41,812 nucleotides of DNA from Candidatus Poribacteria bacterium (GTDB lineage Bacteria > Poribacteria > WGA-4E > WGA-3G). Position numbers and translations under genes: made by a program. The first letter of the stretch is position 1, and every line of letters starts with the position of its first letter. The notes beneath the pieces are model-generated. The model worked only from the letters and a program-made list of their open reading frames with translations. It had not been told where the DNA came from and searched no databases. The stretch spans positions 1 through 41,812 of the forward strand of contig JAAXHO010000197.1 in assembly GCA_012270795.1 (NCBI GenBank), in the 5' to 3' direction. Below are positions 21,450-25,622 of this stretch, in pieces.

Positions 21450-21630
21450 CTAAATAGGACAGAGGCATTCAATTGTCAAATTTCGTTCTTGTAGGAGGGG
21501 TTTTCAACCCCGAATTTTCCCTATCTTCTGTAGGAGCGACCTTTGGTCGCGACCAGAGGTCGCTCCTACCTTAAGAACCTATGTTAGATTATGTGCTAAA
21601 TCGACAATTGAATGCCTCTGCTAAATAGGA
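21450..21630. mobile_element. Small inverted-repeat element with 10-bp target duplication at a stop codon
   Basis: The element is 21460-21620 (161 bp). CAGAGGCATTCAATTGTC (21460-21477) and its exact complement (21603-21620) are the termini, flanked by identical CTAAATAGGA copies (21450-21459, 21621-21630). The right copy contains the stop codon and last two codons of the NADAR gene, so insertion occurred at its stop without changing the protein. Inside are the GGGGTTTTCAACCCC palindrome (21497-21511) and a 13-bp-arm hairpin GTAGGAGCGACCT (21530-21542 with 21557-21569). No ORF. Before insertion, about 35 bp separated the NADAR stop from rsmI. Confidence 0.9.
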
Positions 21631-22325
21631 AGTTTGAGTTGATACGGTATTAATTCTGTTGGTGGAAGCAGGCCCTTATCCGTTATAAGTTCAAAGTAAT
21701 AATCCTTATCTTCAAATATTTGTTTATCAATTAATCCATTTCTTGATAGCGAAACAAATAAAGCTGCAGCACGTGCTTGACAATTTAACGAACGTTTCGG
21801 ATTGAAAACGATATCTGAAAAACCTTGAAATATTTCAAGTTGTTGTGTCAAATCTTTCTTTTTTTGATATAACGCAGTGATATATAGCCAGTCATAGAAA
21901 GCCGTTTTGGGTTCAATTGGAAAATCTTCTCCACAGAAGGCAAAGGCGACTATTTCCCCAGAATTCTGCAACCGTTCATCTGTCTTTGCCGACCTACTTG
22001 AAACTGAATATAGATCGTGGTACGGACCGCCATTTTCAAATACCTTACTTCCTTGATATGCACACTCCACACTCATCTTCTGTCCGTTTGACGTTTCTAA
22101 TGGCAGATTAAAGGCACTTAGCGAAACTCCCAGACGTGATTCCGATTTACGCGAGATTTCCAAAATCGGAGCGATCCCTTGTTTTGCGGCAGCTGCATGT
22201 AAAGATGCAATGGTTTTTTGCATCTGCGATTTTGCAAAACCCGTGTACCATTCGAACTCTATGTCTATTGTGTCAACATACGGAAATCTGCTAAACTCAG
22301 GGGTAAAAATTGGACGGTTTGCCAT
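21621..22325 (-). CDS. NADAR-domain antitoxin associated with DarT1
   Basis: 234 aa. The sequence pattern (start MANRPIFTPEF, then DIEFEWYTGFAKSQMQKTI, LEISRKSESRLGVSLSAFNL, SVECAYQGSKVFENGGPY, SRSAKTDERL and EPKTAFYDWLYITALY) is that of the DarT1-associated NADAR family, sometimes filed as DUF6977. In characterised systems NADAR removes ADP-ribose from guanine bases in DNA modified by DarT1. The gene lies 12 bp downstream of the DarT1-type gene, the order expected for toxin and cognate antitoxin. Its stop codon is within the target duplication of the element at 21460-21620. Confidence 0.85.
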   Translation of the reverse strand: MANRPIFTPEFSRFPYVDTIDIEFEWYTGFAKSQMQKTIASLHAAAAKQGIAPILEISRKSESRLGVSLSAFNLPLETSNGQKMSVECAYQGSKVFENGGPYHDLYSVSSRSAKTDERLQNSGEIVAFAFCGEDFPIEPKTAFYDWLYITALYQKKKDLTQQLEIFQGFSDIVFNPKRSLNCQARAAALFVSLSRNGLIDKQIFEDKDYYFELITDKGLLPPTELIPYQLKLPI

Positions 22326-22337
22326 TGTTTTAACTCC

Positions 22338-23384
22338 TTATTGAGATCTGTGTTTTTGCCATGCTTTATAATCACATCTAGGTCTGAAGTAAGATTCATT
22401 AGCACAAAACCTTTGGGGATAAGTTCCTGAGTTTTCTTCAAACCACGCTTTTAAAGCAGCTTCATTATAAAAATGGACTTCTTTGATGTACTCTGCTGAA
22501 ATTGAATCAAATACAAGAACTTCCGCTTCAGGATGTGTTGGGTAATTATCTGGTATTTGTTGACGCTGATAAGGCGATCCATCTGGGTGATAATCCGAAG
22601 ACGCGAACATCCTTTCTAACGATACGAGTCTTTTCCGATCCTGTAATGGAACACGGAGGACAGGTTCAAAGCGCGCATTTTGGTGGCAAAACGCGCAATC
22701 TAACTCCCATAATACCCTCACATCAAGCAGCAAGACAACCCATTCGTGTTGTTTAGTACGACCAGTCTTACTGAAAAACATCCTATAATTTGGAAAACTG
22801 ATGCTCAAGCAAATTGCCTCTTTGCATCCGTTACCTCGATCCTGATCAGTAAACTGTGGCCGATATTCTGCGGGAATTGACTCTAGAAAAAAACGACTGA
22901 GTAAGCCCCTTCTTTTATCTAAAATACTACGTAGACGGTCGATTCGGGTAAAATGGCAAAGTGTTTCTATATCACGTTCATGGCAAACCTGTTGTATTTC
23001 AGATAGTTTTACTTCGTTGACCCAAACTACGATTTGATTGTATCCTACTTTTTCGGTCGCCCACACTGGTCGTAAATTCCAGATTTCGCCAGTGAGGTTA
23101 ATCTCGTTACCCTTACGGTAGTATTTGTTGATAATCTCAGCTGTCTGACCGTATACTTTACAGTAGAAATGTTCAAACTCAATTCCTTGCCTGAGAACGT
23201 AAAGAGGAGGATCCCAGTTAGAATCCATTTTCTCAACGCCAAAGTCACAGGTGACCTTTCCGTTCGGCAGATACCTTAGGTTGGGATCGCGTGTAAGAAT
23301 TCCAGTTCCGATATAATCGGGTTCTGGTTTAGACTTTCCACTATTCAAAATAAATTGGTCTAAATCAATCCATTTGTGTCTCAA
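22338..23384 (-). CDS. darT1: DarT1-type DNA ADP-ribosyltransferase fused to an SSB-like OB-fold
   Basis: 348 aa. Residues about 24-128 look like a single-strand DNA-binding protein: GTGILTRDPNLRYLPNGK, then FEHFYCKVYGQTAEIIN and YYRKGNEINLTGEIWNL align in order with SSB cores. Residues about 135-310 are DarT: CHFTRIDRLRSIL (His144, Thr146 for NAD), DQDR (179-183) near the substrate site, AICLSISFPNYRMFF, WVVLLLDVRVLWELDCAFC, and catalytic-type Glu288 in PEAEVLVFDSI. DarT enzymes ADP-ribosylate bases of single-stranded DNA; the DarT1 branch is reported to act on guanine. A built-in SSB domain would bring the enzyme to its substrate. Two bp follow the PIN gene and the NADAR gene comes next. 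Confidence 0.85.
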   Translation of the reverse strand: MRHKWIDLDQFILNSGKSKPEPDYIGTGILTRDPNLRYLPNGKVTCDFGVEKMDSNWDPPLYVLRQGIEFEHFYCKVYGQTAEIINKYYRKGNEINLTGEIWNLRPVWATEKVGYNQIVVWVNEVKLSEIQQVCHERDIETLCHFTRIDRLRSILDKRRGLLSRFFLESIPAEYRPQFTDQDRGNGCKEAICLSISFPNYRMFFSKTGRTKQHEWVVLLLDVRVLWELDCAFCHQNARFEPVLRVPLQDRKRLVSLERMFASSDYHPDGSPYQRQQIPDNYPTHPEAEVLVFDSISAEYIKEVHFYNEAALKAWFEENSGTYPQRFCANESYFRPRCDYKAWQKHRSQ

Positions 23385-23386
23385 GT

Positions 23387-23896
23387 TTAGATGTTTTGTT
23401 TAGGTTCATCAAAAATCGCGGATATAGATCGAAATTTTAGAGAATCTTTTGTTTCAATTTCTGCCACCACCCTCCTCACATCAGGAACTGGCAAAATATT
23501 TAACTCCCAGAGTGATCTTAAAATTTCAGCAAGGTTGGTACAATGAATCCCATTTGTTTGGCAGTGATGCCTCACACGCCGTTCATTACTCGCCAAAAGT
23601 GCAGTAAGACGTTTACATATTGCCATAGATTCGCGTTCACCCATACCTAGTGTATCTGGAAGAGAACCCATGAATTTCTCGTCTACTGCTAACAGGTGAT
23701 ATGTTTGTAGTCTACCTTGTGTGTGCAATTCCATGATTGCATTTGCAAAAGGGAATCCCTTTGAGACACCTACCTTAATTTCATTTTCTACAGCATCGGA
23801 AATATTTAGTACTTCTTGATCAAAAACTGCAAACAGTAATGGTAAACGCTGAATTTTGGAGAAAATTGAAAGGACATCGGTATCAATAAATACCAA
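23387..23896 (-). CDS. PIN-domain protein, probable toxin of a UPF0175/PIN pair
   Basis: 169 aa. A PIN-like fold is suggested by IDTDVLSIF at the N-terminus (acidic residues 5 and 7) and by GMGERESMAICKRLTALLAS, where the central Glu lies. This resembles DUF3368 toxins. In that family the next motif is usually DD followed by Arg; here it is SNERR (about residues 103-107), so one acidic metal ligand may be displaced or lost. It is preceded by the antitoxin gene (5 bp gap) and followed by the DarT1 fusion gene (2 bp gap), indicating one transcript. Activity as an RNase is inferred from the family. Confidence 0.7.
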   Translation of the reverse strand: MVFIDTDVLSIFSKIQRLPLLFAVFDQEVLNISDAVENEIKVGVSKGFPFANAIMELHTQGRLQTYHLLAVDEKFMGSLPDTLGMGERESMAICKRLTALLASNERRVRHHCQTNGIHCTNLAEILRSLWELNILPVPDVRRVVAEIETKDSLKFRSISAIFDEPKQNI

Positions 23897-23901
23897 AACT
23901 A

Positions 23902-24174
23902 TTATTCCTCAGTTTGTTTTTTTTCTTTGTGAAAACTGTTGATGAGTGAAACACCTTCTTTCAACTCCGCTACCGAGTTTACCTCAACAATTTTCAAGAT
24001 ACCTTTTGCTTTTAAAACCGATTCAAATTCAAAACGGTGCATCCCCGCAAGTTCCGAAGCTCTTCCCAGTGTTACTTCTCCATCTTGATAGAGTTGAATT
24101 GCAACATCAAGGCGGGGTTTCTTTTTGTTACGCCCTTTCTTGGCAAGATCATCAACGATCAAGGTGTCTGTCAT
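23902..24174 (-). CDS. UPF0175-like antitoxin
   Basis: 90 aa. The central segment AIQLYQDGEVTLGRASELAG followed by M-H-R-F-E-F is the UPF0175 hallmark, a small helix-turn-helix-like DNA-binding protein usually encoded just upstream of a PIN toxin of the DUF3368 type. AGGAG is 10 nt before the ATG. It is the first gene of the four-gene unit and probably autoregulates the promoter at 24206-24235 through the palindrome AGTATACT. Confidence 0.75.
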   Translation of the reverse strand: MTDTLIVDDLAKKGRNKKKPRLDVAIQLYQDGEVTLGRASELAGMHRFEFESVLKAKGILKIVEVNSVAELKEGVSLINSFHKEKKQTEE

Positions 24175-24572: not shown

Positions 24573-25622
24573 TTACCAGTCCTCATCGTGGTGATGCTCT
24601 TGCAGAGGCGGTTTCACCGGGACATCAGGTTCAGGACGCTGGTCTAACCACCACGCAAACACGACCACCAAACACGCAAGCACAATTGCACTTATTGCCA
24701 TCGGAGTCCCCACAGTCTTTTCACCCTCTTCAATGCGTTCTGCTTGCATGCGTATCCTGAAAAGAGCAATAACACCAGACAAAACCGAAATAGCAGCCAA
24801 CACAAGATTTACCTGCCAGGGCACACGGAGTAACACGGTGATAAGTGAAATCACAGCACATGTCATACTTAATAACGCATACGTGTCATAAGGTGTTGTA
24901 TCTGTTTCCTCCATTTCGGTAGAATCGGTGTGTTGACGCGGTGGCACAGGAACTGGTGCATCGTCTTGATAGGTCATCTCAATGAGCCGTATGAATTCTG
25001 CTAACAACTTCTCCTGTTGAATCCAATCAAAAAGTTCTGGATATTCATGGCGGAGCAAAATAGTAAACTCTTGACGTTGCGCGCTATAATCCGTAAATTC
25101 CTCCCAGTCACTTTCTGCAACGGTTGTATACGGTTCGGGCCCAACGCGGAGTTCATAACCGTGTCCAGCAACGTAAACAACACTGCCAATACCTTCACTT
25201 TGTGCAAGGATCGTTTCACCAGAGTCAGTCCCCACTGTTTGGTCAGTATCCGATACAACTGTCATGTCGCGTTGCTTGAGTGCTTCAGCTGCCGCTTCAG
25301 ATTGCAACGTGATTTCGTTATCAGCAATAGCCACGTCAATTCGGCTCACCAGTTCCAGGGCAGTGATCTCATGTTCTGGTGCAACAAACAAGGCAGTTGT
25401 TCCTTCCTGTTTTATCTGCACGGGACGACAGCGAATCTGTTGCGCGCTTAAAGTCGCTTGGATCAGCTTAACTTCCCACTCATCGCTGGTTCGGTAAATC
25501 TCAATCCAATTAGAAGCGTCGCTAACCTCTTCGTTTATGAATTCAGATACCTGTTCCAATCTTCCTTGACTAATCTGTGATCCTTGTGTAGGATTAGGTT
25601 GTTTTCCTCTTTCCCCATCCAT
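24573..25622 (-). CDS. Membrane protein with N-terminal DUF2007-like domain
   Basis: 349 aa. Residues about 37-95 (WIEIYRTSDEWEVKLIQATL and ALFVAPEHEITALELVSRID) resemble DUF2007 'putative signal transducing' domains. The middle part is acidic and unassigned. Three hydrophobic segments lie at about residues 247-263, 267-285 and 308-326, followed by a Pro-rich, His/Asp-rich tail (EHHHDEDW). The tail could bind metal ions. AAAGGA precedes the ATG. It stands alone on the - strand, downstream of tsaE by 125 bp. Function unknown. Confidence 0.65.
   Translation of the reverse strand: MDGERGKQPNPTQGSQISQGRLEQVSEFINEEVSDASNWIEIYRTSDEWEVKLIQATLSAQQIRCRPVQIKQEGTTALFVAPEHEITALELVSRIDVAIADNEITLQSEAAAEALKQRDMTVVSDTDQTVGTDSGETILAQSEGIGSVVYVAGHGYELRVGPEPYTTVAESDWEEFTDYSAQRQEFTILLRHEYPELFDWIQQEKLLAEFIRLIEMTYQDDAPVPVPPRQHTDSTEMEETDTTPYDTYALLSMTCAVISLITVLLRVPWQVNLVLAAISVLSGVIALFRIRMQAERIEEGEKTVGTPMAISAIVLACLVVVFAWWLDQRPEPDVPVKPPLQEHHHDEDW

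Follow-up and report, generated by a model that had tools for sequence, protein, structure and literature searches.

A DarT1-type toxin fused to an SSB-like OB-fold domain in a Poribacterial DarTG1 operon

The fusion gene and its NADAR partner

We analyzed a stretch of 41,812 nucleotides (hereafter the window; positions 1 to 41,812 of contig JAAXHO010000197.1, assembly GCA_012270795.1) from Candidatus Poribacteria, a sponge-associated bacterium, in which a DarT-type toxin gene is preceded in frame by a domain resembling single-stranded DNA-binding proteins (SSBs). The open reading frame (ORF) lies on the minus strand at 22338-23384 and encodes 348 amino acids, with a TTG start codon at 23384 and the stop codon at 22338-22340. 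Residues 1-128 (23001-23384, minus strand) make up the SSB-like oligonucleotide/oligosaccharide-binding (OB) fold domain, the Pfam core of which covers residues 27-102 (PF00436, 39.9 bits, cut-off 26). Residues 129-348 (22341-23000, minus strand) make up a DarT1 DNA ADP-ribosyltransferase domain of predicted guanine type, in which PF14487 (DarT) matches residues 143-311 with 57.7 bits against a cut-off of 22.5. An earlier note on this DNA had proposed an SSB-like N-terminus followed by a complete DarT, and this order is borne out by Pfam, phmmer and structure models.

The gene for a putative NADAR antitoxin (DarG1) of 234 amino acids (21621-22325, minus strand; PF22397 NADAR-DarT1, 288.8 bits, E-value 2.8e-86) starts 12 bases past the toxin stop codon on the same strand, and its product is 72-79% identical to the NADARs in other Poribacterial DarT1 operons. 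By sequence, the fusion and NADAR genes constitute a DarTG1 operon. DarT1-NADAR is a characterised guanine-specific toxin-antitoxin pair, for which the DarTG1 system of Escherichia coli C7 serves as a model of phage defence (PMC11543638). The fusion operon shares with the DarTG1 systems of E. coli C7 and Geobacter lovleyi the adjacent NADAR gene, the R/M/N/E catalytic set and the DarT1 fold. However, the E. coli C7 toxin has just one domain, of about 208 residues, and no SSB part, whereas the fusion has an SSB-type OB-fold at its N-terminus. DarTG2 systems likewise combine a DNA ADP-ribosyltransferase toxin of similar fold (7omv) with a reversing antitoxin, but DarT2 modifies thymine and is paired with a macrodomain DarG, whereas the fusion has a base-contact Asn (N236) and a NADAR partner. 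Indeed, a Pfam search of the NADAR gene next to the fusion revealed no macro domain.

Domains of the fusion protein

In a phmmer search against the PDB, the E. coli C7 DarT1 (8baq) matched residues 130-310 of the fusion with an E-value of 9.6e-25. In the full-length AlphaFold2 (AF2) model most of the DarT part has a predicted local distance difference test score (pLDDT) above 90, and Foldseek returned 8baq as its best match (E-value 2.1e-17, TMt 0.85), followed by DarT2 structures; the DarT2 structure 7omv matches at an E-value of 1.4e-8. The residues R183, M202, N236 and E288 of the fusion correspond to R52, M71, N104 and E152 of E. coli C7 DarT1 (in the 8baq chain the numbering is off by one and the E152 position is occupied by Ala). 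These four residues are essential in E. coli C7 DarT1, where N104 is the counterpart of the DarT2 His at the target base (PMC11543638). Among 30 aligned DarT1s, R183, N236 and E288 are invariant, while position 202 holds M in 22 proteins and L in the other 8. His144, Thr146 and Glu288 are present as the earlier note had stated. Because its catalytic residues agree with those of the E. coli C7 enzyme, the toxin is classified as DarT1-type, and it is predicted to modify guanine. A tree left the exact sister of this DarT1 unsettled.

The N-terminal part is a divergent member of the SSB family, since the NCBIfam SSB model TIGR00621 matches it with 33.3 bits, which is under the cut-off of 53.95. 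Nonetheless, E. coli SSB matched residues 26-108 (phmmer against the PDB, E-value 3.5e-6), and the RDPxLRYLPNG motif is common to the fusion and bacterial SSBs. When the whole fusion was aligned with SSBs and DarTs together, the SSBs were misplaced, so each domain was aligned and modelled alongside relatives of its own kind. The AF2 model of residues 1-132, which used an alignment of 30 SSB relatives, shows an OB-like arrangement of strands with a mean pLDDT of 67 and values of 80-93 in the core strands. Foldseek matched this model to 145 PDB entries at E-values of 0.001 or lower; the best 50 listed are all bacterial SSBs, the top one with an E-value of 3e-6. The OB-fold that the earlier note expected for this region is thus predicted. 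The aromatic residues of the E. coli SSB OB-fold stack on single-stranded DNA (ssDNA), and three of these four positions are kept in the fusion: in the phmmer alignment to 1sru, F70, Y78 and W108 align to W54, F60 and W88, and W57 lies one residue off the position of W40.

Compared with bacterial SSBs such as E. coli Ssb and those of Poribacteria, the fusion thus has the OB-fold core, the motif and most of the stacking aromatics, but it lacks both a disordered linker and a DDDIPF tip, has a toxin domain behind the OB-fold, and shows a sequence identity of only about 30% (31% to the SSB of its own genome). The protein ends in YKAWQKHRSQ, and no acidic DDDIPF-like tip was found there. It is therefore best described as containing an SSB domain without being a full SSB.

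SSB-type tips on other DarT1 toxins

When 84,980 species genomes were scanned with a peptide pattern, 71 DarT1 loci were found. In this set, nine of the 12 other Poribacterial DarT1s end in an SSB-type tip (for example DDDIPF, DDDDIPF, DDDNIPF or DDDMPF). The three tipless proteins are a fusion to a C-terminal NADAR, a fusion to a sigma factor and a protein that ends in FNSDGVPLS. Outside the phylum the tip was present in 3 of 59 DarT1s, namely those of a Campylobacterota metagenome-assembled genome (MAG; EEIPF), an Anaerolineaceae MAG (EDDIPF) and Roseovarius gaetbuli (ESEIPF). True Poribacterial SSBs end in DDDIPF or EDDIPF, and the SSB of the source genome itself in TEDNIPF. The window protein accordingly has the OB-fold without the tip, and its relatives have the tip without the OB-fold.

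The background for the tip was drawn from the retrieved loci rather than from a whole proteome. Of 817 distinct ORFs with 150 or more residues in a first set of loci (a count in which some genes are doubled through overlapping loci), 30 matched the tip pattern, all of them SSB or DarT1. A larger collection gave the tip in 11 of 75 ORFs with the DarT1 motif, versus 1 of 1,331 ORFs outside both the DarT1 and SSB groups; a second match among the latter proved to be an SSB missed by the motif. A further association was found in a Zoogloeaceae MAG (L096:3035-5300, plus strand), where ssb, darT1 and nadar genes are consecutive on one strand and the SSB retains its tip (WAKDIPF), although this gene string is weak evidence for an SSB link on its own.

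Surveys for further fusions and variety of DarT1 N-termini

The earlier note had called for a search for the same domain order. No second SSB-DarT fusion was found in 83-85 Poribacteria genomes, and the SSB profile matched none of the N-terminal parts at the 71 DarT1 loci, although the peptide pattern behind that set misses divergent DarT1s, so that absence elsewhere is unproven. A tblastn search of plasmids gave 15 DarT1 matches, none with the SSB part. There was no match to the fusion in phages. Viral contigs yielded four DarT1s, none with an SSB part or a tip, and contained nothing related to the SSB domain of the fusion. About 15 further DarT1s were collected from Chloroflexota, Pseudomonadota, Bacillota and the order of genome G088, and the SSB profile matched none of the six inspected. 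Within the literature covered, which excluded preprints and included few subscription papers, no paper on a DarT fused to an SSB or to WD40 was found. In these papers and sequence surveys we found no earlier description of the SSB-DarT1 arrangement, whereas DarTG1 itself is already known.

The Poribacterial DarT1s have varied partners, including WD40, a macro domain with NADAR behind the toxin, a CT398 coiled coil with a zinc ribbon, sigma-70, or none. In genome G014, a frame of 965 amino acids (L032:3325-6219, plus strand) contains two DarT1 domains followed by sigma-70 (regions 1.2 to 4), and the NADAR gene lies upstream of the toxin frame, not downstream. In genome G029, a WD40 remnant, a macro domain, DarT1 and NADAR occupy a single frame (L033:2242-4488, minus strand), so that toxin and antitoxin are fused; a second WD40-DarT1 plus NADAR operon adjoins it. 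At L010:577-2175 (plus strand, genome G049), DarT1 is joined to the end of a protein with a CT398-like coiled coil and a C4 zinc ribbon. On a plasmid of Deinococcus sp. QL22 (L041:584-3121, plus strand), DarT1 ends an 846-residue protein encoded directly behind an N-6 DNA methylase gene, and the N-terminal 650 residues of this protein match no Pfam family. The DarT1s at L106 and L066 (Roseovarius, Methylophaga) and at L118 carry a hydrophobic, membrane-like segment at the N-terminus, a hint that some DarT1s are anchored in the membrane.

Interpretation of the fusion

The reading that we consider probable is that this DarTG1 operon encodes a toxin with an SSB-type OB-fold that would bind ssDNA and hold the ADP-ribosyltransferase (ART) on its substrate. 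A complete DarT1 would have captured an SSB domain at its N-terminus. This domain would then bind ssDNA, either alone or by entering host SSB assemblies, and may tether the ART to its substrate, whether at forks, at gaps or on phage DNA in replication. By analogy with characterised relatives, guanines at these sites would be ADP-ribosylated so that replication halts, and NADAR would strip the adducts so that the uninfected cell survives. Tip-bearing relatives may reach the same place through the partners of the SSB tip. The fact that DarT1s of the same phylum carry the SSB C-terminal tip instead lends indirect support to this targeting, which is plausible and seems to be the most economical explanation of the OB-fold and tip pattern taken together. 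A role of the operon in phage defence or dormancy may be envisaged.

Several observations weigh against ssDNA targeting. The fusion is known from a single genome, and its junction from one assembly, a draft of 298 contigs. The SSB domain is divergent, and its own AF2 model is of only moderate confidence. In the full-length AF2 model, which was built with an alignment of DarT1 relatives, the OB part is unfolded because aligned SSB relatives were absent; for this reason the full-length model was not used for domain contacts. In addition, the N-terminal parts of DarT1s are highly diverse (WD40, macro, zinc ribbon, membrane-like or none), also outside the phylum, so that a swapped-in N-terminus need not mean ssDNA targeting.

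This last point is the basis of an explanation that we regard as unlikely, though the most serious rival to targeting, namely that the DarT1 cassette takes up any upstream coding sequence and that the OB-fold only stabilizes or regulates the toxin. The range of partners found at this locus or within the clade, which extends to a C-terminal sigma-70 and to nothing at all, and the equally varied N-terminal parts outside the phylum are what such domain shuffling would leave behind. However, the captured SSB domain and the toxin would share one substrate, and the SSB tip, located at the opposite terminus in the relatives, points to the same machinery.

A rather improbable alternative is that the OB-fold acts as a sensor or lock, covering the ART cleft or holding NADAR until ssDNA, a phage SSB or a recombination protein frees the toxin during infection. 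SSB domains self-associate, and a phage SSB could therefore be read in this way. Moreover, phage ssDNA-binding proteins set off several defence systems, among them AbpAB, Retron-Eco8 and Hachiman (PMC10732053). Against this, no relative of the SSB part turned up in the viral contigs, the OB part is unfolded in the full-length model, which is thus uninformative about domain contacts, and no lock is required since NADAR resets the modification (PMC11543638).

Genomic setting and soundness of the locus

Directly upstream of the fusion lies a PIN-like toxin-candidate gene outside DarTG1 (23387-23896, minus strand), the stop codon of which is 2 bases ahead of the TTG start. It is preceded by a gene for its partner, a UPF0175 antitoxin candidate (23902-24174, minus strand; PF03683, 48.5 bits), which is kept at the locus in sister genomes. 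Both genes match PADLOC PDC-S70, and the pair (23387-24174, minus strand) represents a second toxin-antitoxin candidate. A gene with a weak Pfam match to DUF2007 (24573-25622, minus strand) was used as a marker in locus comparisons. It is present in 78 of 83 Poribacteria genomes and single-copy in nearly all of them.

An arrangement of X-DarT1-NADAR was found downstream of the marker gene in seven other Poribacteria (G029, G036, G039, G044, G053, G063 and G082). Here X is mostly WD40; G036 encodes the WD40 part in a frame of its own, and the X of G053 matched no Pfam domain. Poribacterial WD40-DarT1-NADAR operons (L034, L035, L036, L051, L053 and L056) occupy this same locus in several genomes and, where compared, are about 45-50% identical to the fusion operon in DarT1 and 75-79% in NADAR; their toxins differ from the fusion in having a WD40 propeller in place of the SSB domain and an SSB-type C-terminal tip. 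In G044 a UPF0175 gene lies just before WD40-DarT1-NADAR, and in the window UPF0175 lies before PIN and then SSB-DarT1-NADAR. In G038, the nearest genome (its marker gene is 90% identical), UPF0175 is followed by a short 5' remnant of PIN and then by the flank before rsmI, which marks a deletion. Judging from these comparisons, the locus is chromosomal and old, with sound flanks.

An assembly or binning artefact that joined an ssb fragment to darT1 would fit the single occurrence in a draft genome, but it is very improbable, because the locus is ancestral and both operon flanks recur in sister genomes (G038 keeping UPF0175, the PIN 5' fragment and the rsmI-side flank around its deletion), the 348 codons run through with no stop in a contig of 125 kb, the junction falls between complete domains with the OB-fold intact through its last strand, and the low identity of the SSB part to the genome's own SSB shows that it is not a stray copy. 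By each feature tested at the sequence level, the fusion is best regarded as a real gene and a member of DarTG1.

Implications for the DarT1 family

The DarT1 family appears to be tied into the single-stranded DNA machinery of the cell. We give roughly even chances to the idea that a branch of DarT1 is built into the SSB hub, through the tip in most members, the OB-fold in one and an ssb gene string in one. Such toxins would be fork-directed DNA ADP-ribosyltransferases, or they would occupy SSB partners such as RecO. In E. coli, over a dozen partners dock on the tip hexapeptide of SSB, and a salt bridge that involves the carboxylate of its last residue, Phe, has been proposed (PMC5872125); RecO binds the tip (PMC10018359). 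E. coli handles DarT lesions through RecF-mediated recombination and excision repair (PMC7003065). As an alternative specific to the tip, interference with RecO-dependent repair may therefore be considered, in which the tip on the toxin could hinder the repair of the toxin's own lesions.

The recurring link between DarT1 and SSB is more interesting than the lone fusion. To our knowledge, there is no known answer to the question how DarT toxins find their ssDNA target under its coat of SSB. The built-in SSB fold of the window protein and the exact SSB tip on its relatives suggest a direct and testable route to ssDNA, and it is this pattern, more than the single fusion, that merits attention.
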